64,000 nucleotides of DNA from positions 3,410,001-3,474,000 of the forward strand of contig NZ_AP027368.1 of the NCBI RefSeq assembly GCF_030296015.1, given 5' to 3'. Under the pieces are notes generated by a model, which saw only the letters and a program-made list of their open reading frames with translations, ran no database searches and was not told the DNA's origin. This document shows, in pieces, positions 5,043 to 20,248 of this stretch. Both the position numbers and the translations under genes were made by a program. Positions within the stretch are counted from its first letter, which is position 1. Each line of letters starts with the position of its first letter. The stretch is from Ferrimonas sp. YFM. Its GTDB lineage: Bacteria > Pseudomonadota > Gammaproteobacteria > Enterobacterales > Shewanellaceae.

Positions 5043-6038
5043 TCACCGAACTCCTATGGCAGTATTGGGTAAATCCACGGGAGTAAATTCAAACCTGGGC
5101 TCAGGCCCCCACGCATAGCGAAAGTCAAAAGCACTCGATGGCAAAGCTTCATTCAGAGGTATGCACTCAATTCTGTTGAGGCTGCACTGTCGCCCAGACA
5201 GTTCGATGTCATCGTAAATCTGAATCCTGGTGTGCAGCTCCAGCCGCTCAGCTACGCCATTCACCGGGAACCTCAATTGCCCCTGAATCTGTTGACACTC
5301 TCTCAGAAGCTCTGCTGTCTCCCTGTTGAGTACAAAAAAAGGCCCCAAGTCTGTAACGGCCAGGTGTCTGCCTTGGCGCTGATAAAAATAGGCTCTTAGC
5401 TCTATTGCCCGTGGAATCAGGCTGCCATCAGGGCTGAGAAACTGCTCAAGGTTGGCAAAGATCCGCACCTGAGGCTCCTGTTCCAACATGGCCTTCATGG
5501 TTTCGGACACAATCAGATCGAAGCGAGATTCAGTCTGCCAATGGATCGCATCTGCCAATATGAGGTCGTCAATAAAATCCCAAAGATTCAGCAGGTCTAG
5601 AATCTGTTTCAGGCTATCGAGTGACTCCTGATGAATATCCAGCAACGTGACCCTGACTTGGCCCGGTTTCAGCAGCAACAAAAGCGGTAGAACTAAGGAG
5701 CCAAGAGGCCCGGTACCTGCGTATAGAACTCGCACCGGCTGCGAACGCTCATTAATGGCCTTGAGGATCCCAAGCTGAAACTGATGTACCCGCATGTACT
5801 CCTTGGCACACATTGCCGCAACCAGAGGCGACACCGCCTTACCTGCATCTGTAAAGCTGTACCCGGAATCAACAAATTGGGTTGGATTAAGGTCCATACC
5901 AAGTTGCTCACACAGGGTATCCAGATATTTGTCTTGTAACACTTTGACCTGGCCAGGCTGATCTTGCGGAACCTGTTGCAGCAGCTTCATGACCTGGCGA
6001 AGAGTTTGTCGCAGTAGCTCGTTGTTGGCTGTTCTCAT
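5043..6038 (-). CDS. SAM-dependent methyltransferase, PRMT-like
   Basis: Class I methyltransferase core: motif I VLYAGTGPLGSLVLPLLL near residues 125-140, motif II VTLLDIHQESL with the acidic SAM-ribose ligand, and FDLIVSETM, which resembles the double-Glu loop region of protein arginine methyltransferases. The N-terminal 100 residues are helical and the C-terminal 130 form a beta-rich region like a PRMT barrel. The start is set at the ATG at 6038, preceded by AAGGGA. A TTG at 6098 would add 20 residues and has no clear ribosome-binding site. It is first in the leftward collar-protein train, so one of those proteins may be its target. Substrate unknown. Confidence 0.65.
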   Translation of the reverse strand: MRTANNELLRQTLRQVMKLLQQVPQDQPGQVKVLQDKYLDTLCEQLGMDLNPTQFVDSGYSFTDAGKAVSPLVAAMCAKEYMRVHQFQLGILKAINERSQPVRVLYAGTGPLGSLVLPLLLLLKPGQVRVTLLDIHQESLDSLKQILDLLNLWDFIDDLILADAIHWQTESRFDLIVSETMKAMLEQEPQVRIFANLEQFLSPDGSLIPRAIELRAYFYQRQGRHLAVTDLGPFFVLNRETAELLRECQQIQGQLRFPVNGVAERLELHTRIQIYDDIELSGRQCSLNRIECIPLNEALPSSAFDFRYAWGPEPRFEFTPVDLPNTAIGVR

Positions 6039-7579: not shown

Positions 7580-8035
7580 ATGAGTAACAAGTTCATCATT
7601 ACCTGGGACAACATGCAGATGTACTCCCGCCAGCTGGCCGAACGCCTGCTGCCCGCTGACCAGTGGAAGGGGATCATCGCCGTCAGCCGAGGTGGACTTG
7701 TACCCTCCGCCATTCTCGCCCGTGAACTGGGCATCCGCCACGTCGATACCGTGTGCATCTCCAGCTACGATCACAACCACCAGCGCGATCTGACCATACT
7801 GAAGAAAGCCCCAGGCGACGGCGAAGGCTTCATCGTCATCGATGATCTGGTGGACACCGGCGGCACCGCCGAAGTGATTCGCGAGCTCTACCCCAAGGCC
7901 AAATTCGTTACCGTCTGTGCCAAGCCCGCGGGCAAGCACCTGGTGGACGACTATGTGGTGGACATTCCTCAGGACACCTGGATTGAACAGCCCTGGGATA
8001 TGGCGGTCACCTTCGTCGAGCCTCTGTCCAAGTAA
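7580..8035 (+). CDS. gpt: Xanthine-guanine phosphoribosyltransferase
   Basis: Salvages guanine and xanthine with PRPP to GMP and XMP. The 151 residues align essentially end to end with the enterobacterial enzyme: [20 protein letters not shown] near the N-terminus, the PRPP-binding motif [14 protein letters not shown] at about 87-100, and the C-terminal [14 protein letters not shown]. The ATG at 7580 follows a weak GAGG-type site. It stands alone between ribA and the rubrerythrin operon. A hairpin at 8053-8080 (AAGGCGGG/CCCGCCTT) follows, without an immediate T-run. Confidence 0.95.
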
Positions 8036-12595: not shown

Positions 12596-13234
12596 TCAGG
12601 CTGCTTCACGCATCTGATGCAGCCACTGGCCCAGCTCATCCCGGCTGGGAATGCGCTTGTCGGAGTGGCCCATCAGTTGGGTCAGGGCATAGCAATACTG
12701 ATGGTAGACGCCCAGGTCGCAACACTCAGCATCACCGTCATCGATGTTGATCAGGCTGCCGCGCACAAAGCTGCGCACCAGGGTGCCTCTGTCGTAGCCT
12801 TCGACAGGGCCGATGGCGTCCATCACCTTCTGATTCCAGTCGTTGTAGTCGGCAAAGGCCTTGTTGAAGGCGGCGCGGTAGAACTCTCCGGCCTGCTCCA
12901 GTACTTCCGTGTTGGGCATCACCCGGGAGATCACGAAACGGTCGTTGCACAGCACTTCGCGCATGCGCCAGCAATGGTGGTATAAAAAAAGCTGAAGAGG
13001 ATTCGCGTGCACCTTCTGATCCTCCTGGGCCTGAGCCAGGAAGTCGCGGAATTCTGCGGTAGCCACGGCCACCACCAGGTCCGCCTCAGAGGGGAAATGG
13101 TTGTAGACGGTCCCCTTGGAGATCTGGCTGGCCTTGACCAGATGAGAGCGGCAGAGACCGAAGGTCTTATGACCTTTCAGACAGCGTTGTGCCACGGATA
13201 CCAGGTAGTTTGCCCTTTGTTCCCAGCTGCTCAT
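12596..13234 (-). CDS. TetR-family transcriptional regulator
   Basis: 212 residues. The helix-turn-helix is LVKASQISKGTVYNHFPSEADLVVAV at about 32-57, a clear TetR motif. The C-terminal ligand domain carries HCWRMREVLCNDRF and ends SRDELGQWLHQM. It lies upstream of the bufferin operon in the same direction (116 bp) and divergent from a LysR gene. Ligand and targets are unknown. The C-terminal end resembles that of the TetR-like protein at 14273-14944, suggesting paralogy. Confidence 0.85.
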   Translation of the reverse strand: MSSWEQRANYLVSVAQRCLKGHKTFGLCRSHLVKASQISKGTVYNHFPSEADLVVAVATAEFRDFLAQAQEDQKVHANPLQLFLYHHCWRMREVLCNDRFVISRVMPNTEVLEQAGEFYRAAFNKAFADYNDWNQKVMDAIGPVEGYDRGTLVRSFVRGSLINIDDGDAECCDLGVYHQYCYALTQLMGHSDKRIPSRDELGQWLHQMREAA

Positions 13235-14272: not shown

Positions 14273-14944
14273 CTACAGCCCCACAGCCAGAGTGCTCTCA
14301 TAGGGATCGGCGGCGGAAAACTCACTGATGAGCCACTGGGCCAGTTCCTCCCTCGAAGGACGCGACTCGGATTCCAGCTCCAGCAGGCTGGACACAGACT
14401 CCACCAGGGAAACGTAGCCCTGGAGCGCATCCAGGCTTCGGTTTTTCTCCTGTAACGAGAAATCTCCGGCCATCCACTTATAGAGCTCCAGCACCCCGGC
14501 CAGTTTTGGCGACACCAGCATCTTCATCAGATTGGTCAGATAATCGTTGTAGTTGGCCAGGGAGCGCAGGTAACGCCTGGAGGTCTCCGCGGAGGCGGAG
14601 AAGATCAGCGCTTCACCGGGCACCAGTTTGTGCAGAGGAAAACGTCCCATCACCTGAGCTTCATAGGCTATCCAACAGGCATGATAGAGCAGCGCCTTAG
14701 CTGGCTGGCGATGCAGCCGGTAGCTGTACTCCAGGTGCTTAAAGTGGGAATAAAGCTCACTGTCGGCGATGGAGAGGCGCAGGTCGTGGTCACAGAGGAA
14801 GACCCGCTCCACCCGATGCTCGGAAACACCAGGCTGGGCAGACAGCGTCTTGCGACTGAGGTCATACTCCCCCTGCCCCTGAATCAGCTCACGGGCGACG
14901 GCGCACAGCGCCCTTCTCTCTCGCAGTCCAGATAACATACCCAC
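14273..14944 (-). CDS. Divergent TetR-like protein
   Basis: 223 residues, soluble and helical. The C-terminal end SREELAQWLISEF matches the TetR gene at 12596-13234 (SRDELGQWLHQM), and the middle has a similar pattern (LLYHACWIAYEAQVMGRF against LYHHCWRMREVLCNDRF). The N-terminal HTH is poorly conserved (RKTLSAQPGVSEHRVERVF). It may be a TetR with altered DNA binding or a regulator that has lost it. A GGAA-N4-TTCC element lies 84 bp upstream. Annotation rests on internal comparison. Confidence 0.55.
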   Translation of the reverse strand: MGMLSGLRERRALCAVARELIQGQGEYDLSRKTLSAQPGVSEHRVERVFLCDHDLRLSIADSELYSHFKHLEYSYRLHRQPAKALLYHACWIAYEAQVMGRFPLHKLVPGEALIFSASAETSRRYLRSLANYNDYLTNLMKMLVSPKLAGVLELYKWMAGDFSLQEKNRSLDALQGYVSLVESVSSLLELESESRPSREELAQWLISEFSAADPYESTLAVGL

Positions 14945-15027
14945 CTCTTGGCAAAGGAAAATGGCGCTCCATGCAGAACCTGGGGCCGCTCCAGGGCCCT
15001 GATGACAATACCGCTCAGCTTATCCGA

Positions 15028-15065
15028 GGAATTGTTTCCAAAAAAAAGTCACAGCCACGTTTTGG
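15028..15065. promoter_or_regulatory. GGAA-N4-TTCC element, copy 1
   Basis: GGAATTGTTTCC at 15028-15039 followed by an A-run and, from 15054, GCCACGTTTTGG. The same arrangement recurs at 15272-15308, and the core recurs twice in the dadY-side intergenic region at 20117 and 20234. It is upstream of the TetR-like gene and just beyond the terminator of the second twin RNA. Confidence 0.45.
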
Positions 15066-15091
15066 CAGGTTAACTCCCTGGAAACACCAGA

Positions 15092-15200
15092 TAAAAAAAG
15101 CCCCCACATCTGTGGGGGCCACCTAAGCAATTGGACACGATGCCTCATAGTCAATAAGCAGGGAGACGATGATGAAACCATGGCCTCGCGTCCGTTTCCG
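15092..15200 (-). ncRNA. Candidate small RNA, twin copy B, with terminator
   Basis: Read leftward: a closing stem GGACGCGAGGCC (15193-15182) with GGCATCGTGTCC (15144-15133), 11 of 12 positions paired, a 37-base loop with TTTCATCATCG, then a terminator (GGCCCCCAC/GTGGGGGC, 15120-15099) and seven T (to 15092). The second copy at 15337-15438 has the same layout. Differences between the copies fall in the stems as G-U or compensating pairs only when read on this strand; on the other strand they would be A-C mismatches. No protein is encoded leftward. Homology to a named sRNA was not recognised. Confidence 0.6.
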
Positions 15201-15271
15201 AAATGCGCAGGAGCACCCCAAAAACACTCAGAAAACTTTATTCAAACGACAATCATGCACACCATACCGAA

Positions 15272-15308
15272 GGAATGAGTTCCAAAAAAAAGTCGGGACC
15301 ACGTTTTG
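15272..15308. promoter_or_regulatory. GGAA-N4-TTCC element, copy 2
   Basis: GGAATGAGTTCC at 15272-15283, then AAAAAAAGTC and CCACGTTTTG (15299-15308), the same order as in copy 1. It lies about 80 bp ahead of twin RNA B in the leftward direction. Confidence 0.45.
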
Positions 15309-15336
15309 ACAAACTGGCTACCAATAAACAACAAAC

Positions 15337-15438
15337 AAAAAAAAGGCCCCCACAATGTGAGGGCCACCTAAGCAATTAAACACGAAGCCTCAGAGTCGAT
15401 AAGCAGAGAGACGATGATGAAACCATGGCATCGTGTCT
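15337..15438 (-). ncRNA. Candidate small RNA, twin copy A, with terminator
   Basis: Leftward RNA directly downstream of the porin gene. Closing stem AGACACGATGCC (15438-15427) with GGCTTCGTGTTT (15389-15378), 11 of 12 positions pairing if G-U is allowed; loop containing the conserved TTTCATCATCG; terminator GGCCCTCAC/GTGGGGGCC (15365-15345) and a T-run to 15337. It could be transcribed from its own promoter or be released from the porin 3' end. A GC-rich hairpin (15443-15467) separates it from the porin stop codon. Confidence 0.6.
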
Positions 15439-15442
15439 GATT

Positions 15443-15467
15443 CCTGGGCGGCACAAGGCCGCCCAGG
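15443..15467. repeat. Hairpin after the porin gene
   Basis: CCTGGGCGGC and GCCGCCCAGG flank a five-base loop, a perfect 10-bp stem 8 bp after the porin stop codon. There is no T-run, so it may protect the mRNA 3' end. On the leftward strand it also contains a GG-N10-GC spacing. Confidence 0.6.
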
Positions 15468-15474
15468 AAGTCCC

Positions 15475-16590
15475 TTAGAAGTAGTATCCAAAGTTGATGT
15501 TGATGCGGTTGTCCCAGCCGCTGTCGGTCTGAGCCAGACCCACGTGATCGTTCACCCCGGCGGCGTACATGTTTTCGCCGGCAATAAAGTCGATGTAGGT
15601 GTAGGTGGCACCGGCGGAGATCGCCATACCGGTAACGTTCATCAGGCTGTCGTCGTAGCTGGCATCATCGGTGTCCGGTGTCAGCATGCCGAAGTCGTTG
15701 TAGACGGTGATGCTGCCCCAGGAGGTGGGGAAGCTCTTTGCCAGGTTGACGGAGTAGATCTGAGCCTTTGAGGCCACTTCGTACTGCCAGGCGTAGGCAG
15801 ATACGGCAATCTTGTTGGCATCGGCCGGGCTGTCGGCGTCGTACTCATACTGCATCGCCTGCAGCTGAAGCTTCCAGTCACCGAACTTGGCGTCCATGTG
15901 CACGGCAACGGCATAGCGATCGCCGTTGTCACCGGTCTTGCTGTTGTAGATCTGACCCCACTCCAGAGAGCCACCCAGGGTTGCGCTGCCGCCGTCATAA
16001 TCCATGACGTACACCTGACGCAGGTTGATCTGATTGGTCTCTTCGTTGTTGTACTCGGTGCCGTTTACCGTGCCCTTGTACAGATCGGTGGAGTAACGCT
16101 CGTTTCGGGAAGCACTGTACTCGGCGTTCTTGAACAGGCCGATGTCGGTCTTCCACTGGCCGCCGTTGTAGTGGAAGGTGGCGCCCATGTCGTAGTCATC
16201 TTCAAAGCCCAGGTAGTAAGGCAGGCCGAACCAGAAGCTGTTGGAGATGTAGCCAGGGTTGCCGAAAGGCACGTTGGTCAGGCCGAAGCGGCCCTGCCAC
16301 TGATCATTGAAATCGTAGTAGGCGTAGGCATAGCGCAGGCTCTCCCAGCCATCGAAGAAACGGTACTCAGACGCCAGGCCAATGCCGTTGATCTCACCAT
16401 TGAATTTCAGGGCCAGCATGTCGAACTTGAAGTCGCCCATCTTGTCTTCAGAGGCGTCGCTGTAGCTCTTGTACTGGTAGTTGGCGCGAACGGTGCCGCC
16501 CACATCGATGCCGTCTTCCGCCAGTGCCGCAGCGGAGCTGCCCGCCATCATGGCCGCAATGGCCATAGTCAACGCAGTATTATATTTCAT
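15475..16590 (-). CDS. Outer-membrane porin-like protein in the DMSP locus
   Basis: 371 residues with a clear signal peptide (cleavage near AALAED, residue 25), many alternating aromatic/polar strands typical of a beta-barrel, and a terminal Phe (NINFGYYF), the usual outer-membrane assembly signal. No Cys. It resembles putative porins of Shewanella-like bacteria rather than a specific named channel. It follows dddY by 147 bp on the same strand, which suggests it admits DMSP or releases products across the outer membrane. The substrate is inferred from context. Confidence 0.8.
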   Translation of the reverse strand: MKYNTALTMAIAAMMAGSSAAALAEDGIDVGGTVRANYQYKSYSDASEDKMGDFKFDMLALKFNGEINGIGLASEYRFFDGWESLRYAYAYYDFNDQWQGRFGLTNVPFGNPGYISNSFWFGLPYYLGFEDDYDMGATFHYNGGQWKTDIGLFKNAEYSASRNERYSTDLYKGTVNGTEYNNEETNQINLRQVYVMDYDGGSATLGGSLEWGQIYNSKTGDNGDRYAVAVHMDAKFGDWKLQLQAMQYEYDADSPADANKIAVSAYAWQYEVASKAQIYSVNLAKSFPTSWGSITVYNDFGMLTPDTDDASYDDSLMNVTGMAISAGATYTYIDFIAGENMYAAGVNDHVGLAQTDSGWDNRININFGYYF

Positions 16591-16737
16591 CGTTTCCTGT
16601 CCTATTTAATTTCAGCAGGACACAGGAACCCCTGCCCTCTGCGGAGCATGTAAGTCACCTGGTCCATTTAATTAGCCGCCAAGGCAGCCTTAGAATCTGG
16701 GCCGGTCTGGCGCCGGCCCATTTTTATCAGCTGGTTA

Positions 16738-17997
16738 TCAGTACTTGGTCTTGGTCAAGTCGCAGCGGAACTTCTCACCACGCATGGCTGGCGTGTTGGG
16801 ACGGTCGGCGGACTCACACAGACGGGTCGTACCGTAGTCATTACGCTTATCGTGGGCATTGGAACGCGCCCAGACGGTAACGATCGCCTTCTCTTCGGGT
16901 TTGGCGTGACAGTTGGCACCGTTATAGTTAAAGGCATGGATGGTGTTCTGGTGGAAGTAGGCCAGATCATCATGCTGGGGAGAGGTATTGGCCCAGAACC
17001 AGGGTTCGTTAGGCATGCCGGCATCAAACTCCACCTCACGAATGGTGTCGTTTTCGCTGACGGTCTTCACCAGGGGGCTGTCCTCGCGCACGGCGAAGTT
17101 CTGGAACTCGTCGGCACAGGCAGGTTCACGCATGGTGTAGTAGATCTCGGAGATCGCGTGGTTGTGGTAGGGGTAGAAGGAGTCGATGCGCTGGGCCACC
17201 ATGCCCACTTCGGCACCCACCTTCTCATTGTTGATCTCATCGATGCGCAGCAGGCCCCAGTGGCCAAACACTTCGGCGTAAGCGTAGTTGCCCCGGGTCT
17301 TGGTGAAGTTACGCTTGTTACGCTCGCTGTCTTCGGCGTACATGGGGAACCAGCCCACAGAGGCCCACAGGTTTGGCAGGGCGTTGGCGCTGATGTCGAA
17401 CGGGAAGGCATCCGGCAATTTGATGTCGTCACCGGTCACCATCTTGGAGAAGTTCTTGGTGAACTCACCACCGTACTCCTTCACCTCTTTGTTGGTGACC
17501 TTCTTGTCGAAAAACTCCTGGAAGGTGGTGCGCTTCAGCCATTTGGCCACAGGAGAGTTCTTCTCCAGCTCGCCGCCCGGGCTGTAGATCCAGTTGACGT
17601 CTTCTCGGGCACCGAAACAGGCCTTGGCTTTGTCCGGATTGTTGATTACCGCATAGATGTGCTTAACCATCAGCTTCATGTCGCGACGGTCCATAATGCA
17701 CATGTACTGTGGACCCGCCAGATCATGGGTGTTGGTCTGGAACATGCTGCGGTCGGAGTTACGGCAGTTGCCGTCGCTGGTGCTCAGCGCCACGGCGTAA
17801 CCTTCCAGATATTTCAGGGTCTCATTCCACAGAATGTCGACGTACTTCTGGTCTTTTTTGGAATAAGTGGCAGTTTCGCCGAGACATTTGAACTCAGCGT
17901 TCAGAATTTCATCTTTATCCAGGAAATCGGGAATGGTCGCGGCCATGGCTGAATTGGCAGCCAGCAGCCCCGCTATCAAAGCAGAGTATTTCATCAT
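16738..17997 (-). CDS. dddY: Periplasmic DMSP lyase DddY
   Basis: Cleaves dimethylsulfoniopropionate to dimethyl sulfide and acrylate. The 419 residues match the DddY size, with a signal peptide ending at Ala19-Ala20. The C-terminal cupin shows the metal motif YPYHNHAISEIYYT (His278, His280, Glu284, Tyr286) and a distal His354 in FHQNTIHAFN, the expected H-x-H-x3-E ... H ligand set. Six or more Cys in the N-terminal half and after the cupin may form periplasmic disulfides. Start ATG-ATG-AAA at 17997. It sits between a porin and a cytochrome/flavoprotein pair that can use acrylate. Recognised by motif and context, not by search. Confidence 0.85.
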   Translation of the reverse strand: MMKYSALIAGLLAANSAMAATIPDFLDKDEILNAEFKCLGETATYSKKDQKYVDILWNETLKYLEGYAVALSTSDGNCRNSDRSMFQTNTHDLAGPQYMCIMDRRDMKLMVKHIYAVINNPDKAKACFGAREDVNWIYSPGGELEKNSPVAKWLKRTTFQEFFDKKVTNKEVKEYGGEFTKNFSKMVTGDDIKLPDAFPFDISANALPNLWASVGWFPMYAEDSERNKRNFTKTRGNYAYAEVFGHWGLLRIDEINNEKVGAEVGMVAQRIDSFYPYHNHAISEIYYTMREPACADEFQNFAVREDSPLVKTVSENDTIREVEFDAGMPNEPWFWANTSPQHDDLAYFHQNTIHAFNYNGANCHAKPEEKAIVTVWARSNAHDKRNDYGTTRLCESADRPNTPAMRGEKFRCDLTKTKY

Positions 17998-18118: not shown

Positions 18119-18517
18119 TTACTGCTTGTGCTTGGTGAACTTGAAGGTGTGGCAGTCATTACACAGAGGCTGCTTGGCTTCGTGCTCACCGTGACAAACG
18201 GTACAAGGTACCTCTTTGCCGTAGTGCAGGTTGTTGTGAGGGTTCTGCCACAGCTCGTCACCCTTGCGAGCGGTCTTCTTCGCCAGCTTGTCCGCTTTGT
18301 GACACTTCAGGCAGGCGTCGTCCGCAGGGCGGTGAGAAGGCGCGTTGGTGCCGTGACAAACCTTACAGTTGTCCTTTTTGTAGAACTTCTGGTGGTAGCT
18401 GCGACCGTCCATCATGCCTTGGTCGGTCAAAGAAGCATCCGCCTTGATCTCGGCAGCAACGTTAGTGCTTGCCAGTACTGCAGCAACAGCAGCCAGGGTC
18501 ATTAACTTTTTCATCAT
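18119..18517 (-). CDS. Periplasmic tetraheme cytochrome c (cytochrome c3 family)
   Basis: 132 residues: signal peptide ending near Ala22, then four CxxCH heme sites (CKVCH, CLKCH, CTVCH, CNDCH) with additional His for bis-His ligation. Size and spacing resemble the heme domain of Shewanella flavocytochrome c fumarate reductases, here as a separate protein. It is encoded 27 bp after the flavoprotein gene and very probably donates electrons to it, fed from the quinol pool through a CymA-like protein outside this window. The start codon context GATGATGAAA is complementary to the loop of the twin RNAs. Confidence 0.92.
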   Translation of the reverse strand: MMKKLMTLAAVAAVLASTNVAAEIKADASLTDQGMMDGRSYHQKFYKKDNCKVCHGTNAPSHRPADDACLKCHKADKLAKKTARKGDELWQNPHNNLHYGKEVPCTVCHGEHEAKQPLCNDCHTFKFTKHKQ

Positions 18518-18544
18518 CTAATCCTCATTAATTCCGTTACTGAC

Positions 18545-20071
18545 TCAGGCGCCCATGATGCTGCGAGCAGCGGTCATGCCCATTACCATACAATCTGGAA
18601 TGGAGCAGCTACCCAGACGGCTCACGCCGTGCATACCACCGGCCACTTCGCCCGCGGCGTACAGGCCTTCGATGCGCTTACCGGTAAAGGAATCCTTAAC
18701 CTCGGCCTTGGTGTTGATCTGAACACCGCCCTGGCAGTAGTGAACCTTGGGCCACAGACGAACCACGGTGAAGGGGGCTTTCAGGTACTTACCTTTGGCT
18801 TTACCCATGTTCTTACCGAACTGCTCATCGTTACCGGTCTTCACGTAGCCGTTGTACTCTTCGATCTGCTCCTGCAGAGGCTTCAGAGGCACGTCGAAGT
18901 GCTTGGCCAGCTCTTCCAGAGAGTCGAACTTCCAGCCCACACCGTACTTCAGTACTTTCTTGCAGTTGGGGTGCTGCTTGGCATGCTCGTAGCTGGTGAT
19001 CATGATGGGAGGCAGAGGCTTGCCCTGGGCATCACGACAAGCCAGTTCGGCGTCGGCACGGGTCTTACGGTCAGCGATTTCGTTCATGAAACGCTTACCG
19101 GTCATGCGGTTAACCGCAATGGAGTGAGGGAAGTTGAAGATGGAGTAGTTGGACACATAGCCGAAACCACCTTCATCTGGGGACGCCCAAGGACCGGACT
19201 GGATGTGCGCCATGTGCACAGGGATGGCACCCAGACGGAACATCTCGAACATACCTTCACCGGTCGCACCCTTGGCGTTGGTACAGCCTACTTCGGCGGT
19301 CAGGGTAGGATCCTGAGCCATACGCAGGTCAACGTTCTGAGCGAAACCACCGGTGGCCATGATCACGCCGCGGGTAGCGCGTACGTTGATCTCTTCTTCC
19401 AGCTCTGGGTTTTCGTCTTCGAAGTAGTAGCCTTTGTTCAGACGCACACCGACAACCTTGCCAGCGTCATCCAGGATGAAGCCGTTGAACTTGGTGCGAG
19501 GGACCATGTTCACGCCCATCTTGCGGCACTCACGCAGCAGAGGCTGGGTGATACCGGCGCCACAGCTAACGGTGGTCTGGTAGGTACGAGGTACGGAGTG
19601 ACCACCCAGCTGTTGCAGGTAGGGGTGGAATTCGGCACCGGCGTCCATGGTCATCTGCAGAGCTTCCATGGCGTGAGAGGCCACGTGACGCAGCAGAGCT
19701 TCGTCGGCAATACCACGACCGGCTTTCAGCTGGTCGTTCACCATGCGCTCGACAGAGTCTTCAACACCCTTCTCTTTCTGCATGGGAGTCTGAGGCGCTG
19801 CAAACAGACCGCCGTTAATGGCGGAGTTACCACCGAAAACAGGCATCTTTTCGAAGATGGTGACTGACTTACAGCCTTTGCGGGCCGCTTCGATGCCAGC
19901 GGCCAGGCCGGCGAAGCCGGAGCCGATAATGGCGATTTCTACAGTCTCGTCCCACTTCACACCTTTGGCACTGACAGAGGTCGCCATAGCAGCAGGAGCC
20001 GCCATAACTGCACCGGCTGCACCCAGCCCTTTAATGAAGTTACGGCGTCCTAGCAGATTAACTTTACTCAT
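18545..20071 (-). CDS. Tat-exported FAD reductase of the fumarate reductase family; probable acrylate reductase
   Basis: 508 residues. Tat signal with GRRNFIKG at 8-15; FAD dinucleotide motif IIGSGFAGLAAG at 48-59. The family substrate site is partly kept: His444 in PKVHYCQGG and Arg485 in HGVSRLGS match the residues that bind one carboxylate and orient FAD. The usual His of the IQAHPT motif is missing; here it reads HIQSGPW (289-295). Loss of that second-carboxylate ligand argues against fumarate and fits a monocarboxylate such as acrylate. There is no FMN or heme domain; the adjacent tetraheme cytochrome supplies hemes. The acrylate assignment rests on this and on dddY/acuI context. Confidence 0.8.
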   Translation of the reverse strand: MSKVNLLGRRNFIKGLGAAGAVMAAPAAMATSVSAKGVKWDETVEIAIIGSGFAGLAAGIEAARKGCKSVTIFEKMPVFGGNSAINGGLFAAPQTPMQKEKGVEDSVERMVNDQLKAGRGIADEALLRHVASHAMEALQMTMDAGAEFHPYLQQLGGHSVPRTYQTTVSCGAGITQPLLRECRKMGVNMVPRTKFNGFILDDAGKVVGVRLNKGYYFEDENPELEEEINVRATRGVIMATGGFAQNVDLRMAQDPTLTAEVGCTNAKGATGEGMFEMFRLGAIPVHMAHIQSGPWASPDEGGFGYVSNYSIFNFPHSIAVNRMTGKRFMNEIADRKTRADAELACRDAQGKPLPPIMITSYEHAKQHPNCKKVLKYGVGWKFDSLEELAKHFDVPLKPLQEQIEEYNGYVKTGNDEQFGKNMGKAKGKYLKAPFTVVRLWPKVHYCQGGVQINTKAEVKDSFTGKRIEGLYAAGEVAGGMHGVSRLGSCSIPDCMVMGMTAARSIMGA

Positions 20072-20116: not shown

Positions 20117-20248
20117 GGAACCAGTTCCAAAACGGGAGATTCTGTTATTTCTTACTAAAAGAGTTTGAACCTTTTGGAAAATAGAGAGACCAATCAAATT
20201 TATAGAGGGAATATATATATTCCACCCCCTTTTGGAATTCATTCCAAA
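20117..20248. promoter_or_regulatory. Divergent promoter region with GGAA-N4-TTCC operators
   Basis: Between the flavoprotein gene and its divergent LysR regulator. GGAACCAGTTCC (20117-20128) is followed by AAAA; a half-site TTTTGGAA lies at 20172-20179; TTTGGAATTCATTCCAAA (20231-20248) is an 8-bp-arm palindrome compatible with a LysR T-N11-A site. Both full sites share the GGAA-N4-TTCC core found near the twin RNAs. Confidence 0.6.

Follow-up and report, generated by a model that had tools for sequence, protein, structure and literature searches.

A duplicated, structured RNA element behind the dddY operon of Ferrimonas, with a loop complementary to gene start regions

The DMSP lyase locus and its twin RNA units

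The window analysed here is a stretch of 64,000 nucleotides from Ferrimonas sp. YFM (RefSeq GCF_030296015.1, NZ_AP027368.1, positions 3,410,001 to 3,474,000), whose genome, hereafter G000, consists of a single contig of 4.66 Mb. DMSP is a marine sulphur compound, and its cleavage releases dimethyl sulphide, a climate-relevant gas. On the minus strand of the window, genes for a flavoprotein reductase, a small multihaem cytochrome, the DMSP lyase DddY and a porin-like protein follow one another (Table 1), and their order and common strand suggest that they form one operon. Neither the porin-like gene nor the TetR-like gene beyond it matched any Pfam or NCBIfam model. Between the porin stop and the TetR-like gene, the minus strand carries in order a GC hairpin, a structured unit (B), a 90-bp region, a second structured unit (A) and another copy of the 90-bp region.

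Table 1 Features of the dddY locus, in window coordinates.
Feature	Position	Strand	Basis or remark
Flavoprotein reductase, presumed first gene of the operon	18545..20071	-	TIGR01813, 495.3 bits (cut-off 285.45)
Small multihaem cytochrome	18119..18517	-	PF14537, 46.9 bits (cut-off 25)
DMSP lyase DddY	16738..17997	-	NF053571, 706.5 bits (cut-off 650)
Porin-like gene	15475..16590	-	putative porin: initial annotation, N-terminal signal peptide, C-terminal F
TetR-like gene, downstream of unit A	14273..14944	-	24% identity to TetR-type protein 12596-13234
GC hairpin without T-run, between porin stop and B	15441..15469	-	inverted repeat
Structured RNA unit B, directly behind porin	15338..15447	-	repeat, fold, homologues in G005 and G009
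Structured RNA unit A	15093..15202	-	repeat, fold, homologues in G005 and G009
B closing stem, 5' arm (3' arm 15378-15389)	15427..15438	-	alignment columns 10-21 with 59-70
A closing stem, 5' arm (3' arm 15133-15144)	15182..15193	-	alignment columns 10-21 with 59-70
B loop seed, GTTTCATCATCGTCTCTC	15406..15423	-
A loop seed, GTTTCATCATCGTCTCCC	15161..15178	-
B terminator, 9-bp hairpin and T-run	15345..15365	-	first terminator-like site after porin stop
A terminator, 9-bp hairpin and T-run	15099..15120	-
Cytochrome start region	18509..18518	-	10 nt complementary to loop
dddY start region	17989..17997	-	9 nt complementary to loop
Porin start region	16587..16593	-	7 nt complementary to loop
Palindrome TTTTGGAACTCATTCC, upstream of A	15272..15287	-
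Palindrome TTTTGGAAACAATTCC, upstream of TetR-like gene	15028..15043	-
Palindrome TTTTGGAACTGGTTCC, upstream of operon's first gene	20117..20132	-
Second palindrome upstream of operon	20230..20245	+

The initial annotation had described two units 245 bp apart that share a closing stem, a 37-base loop and a leftward terminator with a T-run, and this anatomy was confirmed by repeat analysis, folding and a terminator scan. The units form a direct repeat of 107 nt with 84% identity (15093-15199 and 15338-15444, 245 bp from start to start), their loops are identical at 34 of the 37 positions, and the predicted terminators lie on the minus strand in both. The repeated unit exceeds that first description, as about 90 bp more are duplicated beyond the terminator, including a sequence of the type CAAAACGTGG-N4-GACTTTTTTTTGGAA-N4-TTCC. 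Read leftward, unit A folds at -41.6 kcal/mol (z -3.06) and unit B at -35.7 kcal/mol (z -3.13). The rightward z values were -3.25 (A) and -4.66 (B), so that folding energy does not give the strand. The base pairs do: across 20 stem pairs in five copies from three Ferrimonas genomes, all 100 pair cells hold standard pairs when read leftward as against 90 rightward, and 10 of the leftward cells are G-U and none A-C. The leftward orientation of the units is well supported, as is the earlier statement that pairing is kept only in that direction. Covariation proper is weak; one pair changed on both sides, and the observed values were equalled in 206 of 500 column shuffles of the five-copy alignment.

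Read rightward, the loop amounts to a ribosome site followed by ATGATGAAA and opens a frame of 46 amino acids in copy A, as might be seen in a duplicated remnant of a gene start or of a small plus-strand reading frame. That origin is extremely improbable, given that the frame shrinks to 8 amino acids in B, 33 in the first G005 copy (G005_A) and 27 in G009, and that terminators and G-U pairs point leftward. A conserved small ORF was rejected on these frame lengths and, for the leftward strand, on the absence by eye of the loop ATG from G005_A and G009.

No sigma70-type promoter was found in 14900-15600, and copy B showed none of its own. The palindrome GGAAN4TTCC occurs four times in the 16-kb G000 locus (twice before the flavoprotein gene, once before A and once before the TetR-like gene) compared with twice in 400 kb of background, and all six species that carry the element described below have the copy closest to the flavoprotein gene. 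A longer form of the pattern, allowing one mismatch, has 10 places in the whole genome, no fewer than the 8 of its reversed control, and 4 of the 10 fall in the DMSP locus. By eye, a TAnnnT hexamer stands 5 nt after the palindrome before the operon, A and the TetR-like gene. From these palindrome and hexamer sites, it is most likely that B rides on the operon mRNA and that A has an operon-like promoter. The initial proposal of a duplicated sRNA holds for a duplicated, leftward, structured RNA, and is half right as to twin sRNA genes: A follows a promoter-like region, and B, without a promoter of its own, looks like the 3'UTR of the operon. Conserved GGAAN4TTCC palindromes lie at 15308-15028 and 20117-20245, and nearby LysR- or TetR-type genes are candidate regulators.

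The position of the terminators was scanned in five loci. In G000, G009, G006 and G010, no terminator-like site was found on the operon strand between the last gene and the element's own terminator; in G001 a terminator-like hairpin precedes the element, and the scan of that strand showed none beyond it. Such a location, together with the missing promoter of B, is what would be expected of a cis-acting 3'UTR element, that is, a structured mRNA tail serving stability or termination, with a loop that touches starts on the same molecule or binds a protein, and with no free sRNA. Copy A, however, lies beyond B's terminator and has a palindrome region of its own, and conservation centres on the loop core (18 of 21 columns, 25-45) rather than on the stem arms (8 of 12 each), although the terminator is also conserved (18 of 22). 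We regard a purely cis-acting role as distinctly unlikely.

Homologues and a loop that persists across changing stems

Sequence homologues were found in three of the 14 genus genomes, with two copies in G000 and G005 and one in G009, always behind the same porin. All 20 stem pairs are kept in the two further species at this same place, and the stem preservation on which the initial annotation had staked its claim is thereby observed. A covariance-model search of the kind it had suggested, run with model R1 over the 14 Ferrimonas genomes, recovered the five known copies at 123-133 bits; the next match scored 30.9 bits, and the weaker alignments (ten among those listed) match mainly through a terminator. 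No Rfam family reached its gathering score in the window or in the loci L127, L114 and L130. At E ≤ 5, the interval 14940-15500 gave 13 sub-threshold matches, the best being OmrA-B (RF00079); membership of copy A was rejected at 26.1 bits versus a gathering score of 40, its likeness lying chiefly in the terminator hairpin.

Eleven of the 14 Ferrimonas genomes encode DddY, and their loci were compared with seven DddY loci of a sister genus (g2), drawn from 11 DddY-bearing genomes among 394 of the order with the more distant locus G142 left out. An element with the loop GTTTCATCATC stands at the operon tail in six of the 11 Ferrimonas loci, on three unlike stems and once without a porin. In all six (G000, G005, G009, G006, G010 and G001), the interval from the last operon gene to the following gene contains TTTCATCATC. 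The whole stretch read for the remaining five (G002, G003, G011, G012 and G013) lacks TTTCATCAT. The element is absent from all seven sister-genus loci; the 9-mer TTTCATCAT occurs in five of these but not behind the operon.

In G006 and G010 the stem is unlike that of the window and folds strongly (z -6.77 and -3.62, respectively). Between the two, 60 pairs were scored, of which 40 are unchanged, 8 changed on one side, 3 changed on both and 9 broken, and 5 more face gaps. No porin was found at the G010 locus, where the element is nonetheless kept; within the interval from dddY to the next gene, the element stretch is the part that aligns by far best with G006. The G001 porin is 42-45% identical, and the element behind it takes a third form, with an 11-bp long-range stem and a weak fold (z -2.11). 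The loop thus persists across the genus while the stem changes, a feature that the initial annotation had missed. The six element-bearing loci are also those with the six highest DddY identities to the window, so they probably represent one clade and one evolutionary event. A survey of porin 3' ends (43 porin matches, 30 with loci) found the seed behind all four DMSP-locus orthologues and, among the other 26, behind one only (L104), itself a DMSP locus.

Two side observations concern gene content. In G010, a 26-codon frame in the porin's stead (L198, 5132-5212) resembles by eye the porin signal peptide, and in G011 two flavoprotein-cytochrome pairs stand in a row before dddY (L199, 3-1096 and 1558-3490).

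Complementarity of the loop to start regions and its wider seed family

The initial annotation had also missed that the loop matches gene start regions, including those of the operon's own cytochrome and dddY. In reverse complement, GTTTCATCATCGTCTCCC reads as a Shine-Dalgarno-like run and then ATGATGAAAC. When as many as three mismatches are allowed, the loop pattern occurs at 33 places in its own genome (the two units included) versus 4 for the reversed pattern, and 12 of 30 inspected places begin a long frame that is signal-peptide-like by eye, encoding lipoproteins, multihaem cytochromes, porins and curlin-like proteins. A generic ribosome site and start codon are part of any such match, so this excess alone proves little.

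For each species, the longest contiguous match between its loop and the start regions of its operon was scored. Listed for G000, G005, G009, G006, G010 and G001 in turn, it spans 10, 10, 10, 10, 10 and 8 nt at the cytochrome start, 9, 9, 8, 10, 9 and 9 nt at the dddY start, and 7, 7, 7, 9, none and 10 nt at the porin start; at the flavoprotein start it is 5-6 nt in the six element loci. As background, 282 genes in 400 kb of the G000 genome were scored generously, with up to six possible starts per gene and both loops, and 26 reach 8 nt, 4 reach 9 nt and 3 reach 10 nt. Against the G000 loop, the five Ferrimonas loci without the element give 5-7 nt at the cytochrome (four scored, G003 left out) and 5-8 nt at dddY, and no ATGATGAAA start is among the starts listed there. 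Cytochrome and dddY starts of the sister genus give 5-8 nt with the same loop, and two of its porin starts reach 9 nt though the element is absent. The co-occurrence of element and matching starts may reflect a single evolutionary event.

Duplex energies were ranked over 339 start regions. With loop A the cytochrome came 58th, the porin 85th, the flavoprotein 188th and dddY 226th; with loop B the ranks were 112th, 100th, 249th and 217th, respectively. The minimum-energy search over these regions did not single out the operon. Complementarity to the operon's own starts is accordingly above background in contiguous length at the cytochrome and dddY, and not outstanding in energy rank. The top trans target of loop A by energy is a curlin-like gene, with 15 contiguous nt, and the site was not found in G005 or G009.

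The seed GTTTCATCATCNTCTCCC, with at most one mismatch, occurs at 43 places in the 14 genomes versus none for the control. Thirty-six of these were classified: 21 have a terminator in the sense of the seed, 13 are antisense to open-frame starts, and two stand apart, namely L141, where a hairpin and T-run are present but below the script's threshold, and L140, which was left unassigned. The RNA-like places are all in the same six genomes as the DMSP element. A search of 84,980 species genomes, which may lack records of the own genome, with the seed extended by CTG gave 23 stretches, of which three in Ferrimonas are RNA-like; the other 20, judged by eye on their flanks, resemble coding sequence, gene starts or chance matches.

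Outside the window, four short RNA-like units at L127 6553-7151 (-) (G000:C1 3308552-3309150) form a tandem array with a spacing of 147-168 bp. Every unit has a terminator and the seed, in full or shortened, and a sigmaE-like promoter stands at a constant distance from both units tested. Similar RNAs occur in G001, G006 and G010. Two more seed-bearing RNA-like units flank the array at about 5235-5300 (-) and 7925-8020 (+), the latter with relatives in G001, G005, G006, G009 and G010. At L128 6312-6400 (G000:C1 about 4356311-4356400), seed and terminator lie directly behind a flavoprotein-multihaem cytochrome pair; this type of unit is also found in G005 (L142) and has no sigmaE-like promoter.

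These relatives bear on whether the window RNA acts mainly in trans, as a member of a seed family that represses signal-peptide mRNAs generally, the operon only adding one more copy under DMSP use and no autoregulation taking place. A sigmaE-like pattern, written after the arrays had been seen, precedes each of the 16 seed RNAs in or flanking the arrays and none of six 3'UTR-type ones, four of which are DMSP-locus copies (control 30/10000). The seed also stands behind another operon (L024, L142), and the antisense open-frame starts among the classified places and the energy rank of the curlin-like gene agree with a general role in trans. The curlin-like site was not found in G005 or G009, however, and the contiguous match lengths at the operon's own starts lie far above background. 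Trans action without autoregulation appears fairly unlikely. The four DMSP-locus copies tested (A, B, G005_A and G009) lack the sigmaE-like promoter and, by promoter, are not sigmaE-dependent sRNAs.

A candidate feedback brake and its relation to known systems

The reading we favour, tentatively and at somewhat less than an even chance, is a 3'UTR-borne sRNA of the dddY operon that was duplicated and would act as a feedback brake on its own operon and on other envelope mRNAs. Copy B would be the 3' end of the operon mRNA and the source of its terminator, and copy A would have arisen by tandem duplication, behind a region resembling the operon's own promoter region. The closing stem presents a largely single-stranded loop, GUUUCAUCAUC-N-UCUC, complementary to the starts of genes that begin with ATGATGAAA. 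The RNA could be freed from the mRNA by processing (B) or transcribed separately (A), probably with Hfq as a binding partner; an hfq gene is encoded in the same genome. It would then pair with the cytochrome and dddY cistron starts of its own operon, blocking translation, and probably also with other envelope-protein mRNAs having such starts, and the brake would leave the first cistron, the flavoprotein, unaffected.

A broader proposal, which we consider speculative and somewhat doubtful, places this brake within a seed network in part of one genus. Tandem sRNAs with sigmaE-like promoters would share the anti-start-codon seed GUUUCAUCAUC-N-UCUCC with RNAs in the tails of catabolic operons, namely the DMSP lyase operon and a second flavoprotein-cytochrome pair, and the same envelope mRNAs would receive one pairing signal during both envelope stress and DMSP use. 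Within the DMSP operon, the seed would have survived the loss of its stem and, in one species, that of the porin as well, and duplication would have let one copy gain an operator-bearing promoter. If true, these proposals would mean that dddY has a brake of its own, that a seed can persist when its scaffold does not, and that operon tails and sigmaE-type sRNAs are linked through one seed.

No report of RNA control of a DMSP lyase, or of such an RNA in Ferrimonas, was found among the open-licence papers listed in the searches made. The closest parallels are OppZ and CarZ of Vibrio cholerae, described as sRNAs from operon 3' ends that pair with their own transcript (PMC7398697). The location at an operon 3' end and a terminator common to the operon are likewise seen for B in G000, and also in G009, G006 and G010, but not in G001. 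OppZ is described as sparing the first cistron (PMC9438474), which would have its counterpart here in the missing match at the flavoprotein start. For OppZ and CarZ, an origin by RNase E cleavage is reported from experiment (PMC7398697, PMC9438474). Unlike either, the element of the window has two copies, one of them behind its own palindrome region, and a seed common to other RNAs of the genome. MalH is described as an sRNA from a catabolic-operon 3'UTR acting on porin mRNA (PMC8081044, PMC9438474), and FadZ likewise as a catabolic-operon 3'UTR sRNA acting on porin mRNAs (PMC10703908); their porin targets are unlinked, whereas the conserved matches here lie within the same operon.

The window RNA also has a partial likeness to a class with dedicated promoters, since a sibling array in the same genome has sigmaE-like promoters, although the window copies lack them. 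The sigmaE-dependent omp-repressing sRNAs of this class include RybB and MicA. Such RNAs are described as using a short pairing region against envelope-protein mRNAs (PMC1804206). The own rpoE gene of G000, which the script's stricter pattern did not match, has by eye GAACTT-N16-TCTA upstream.
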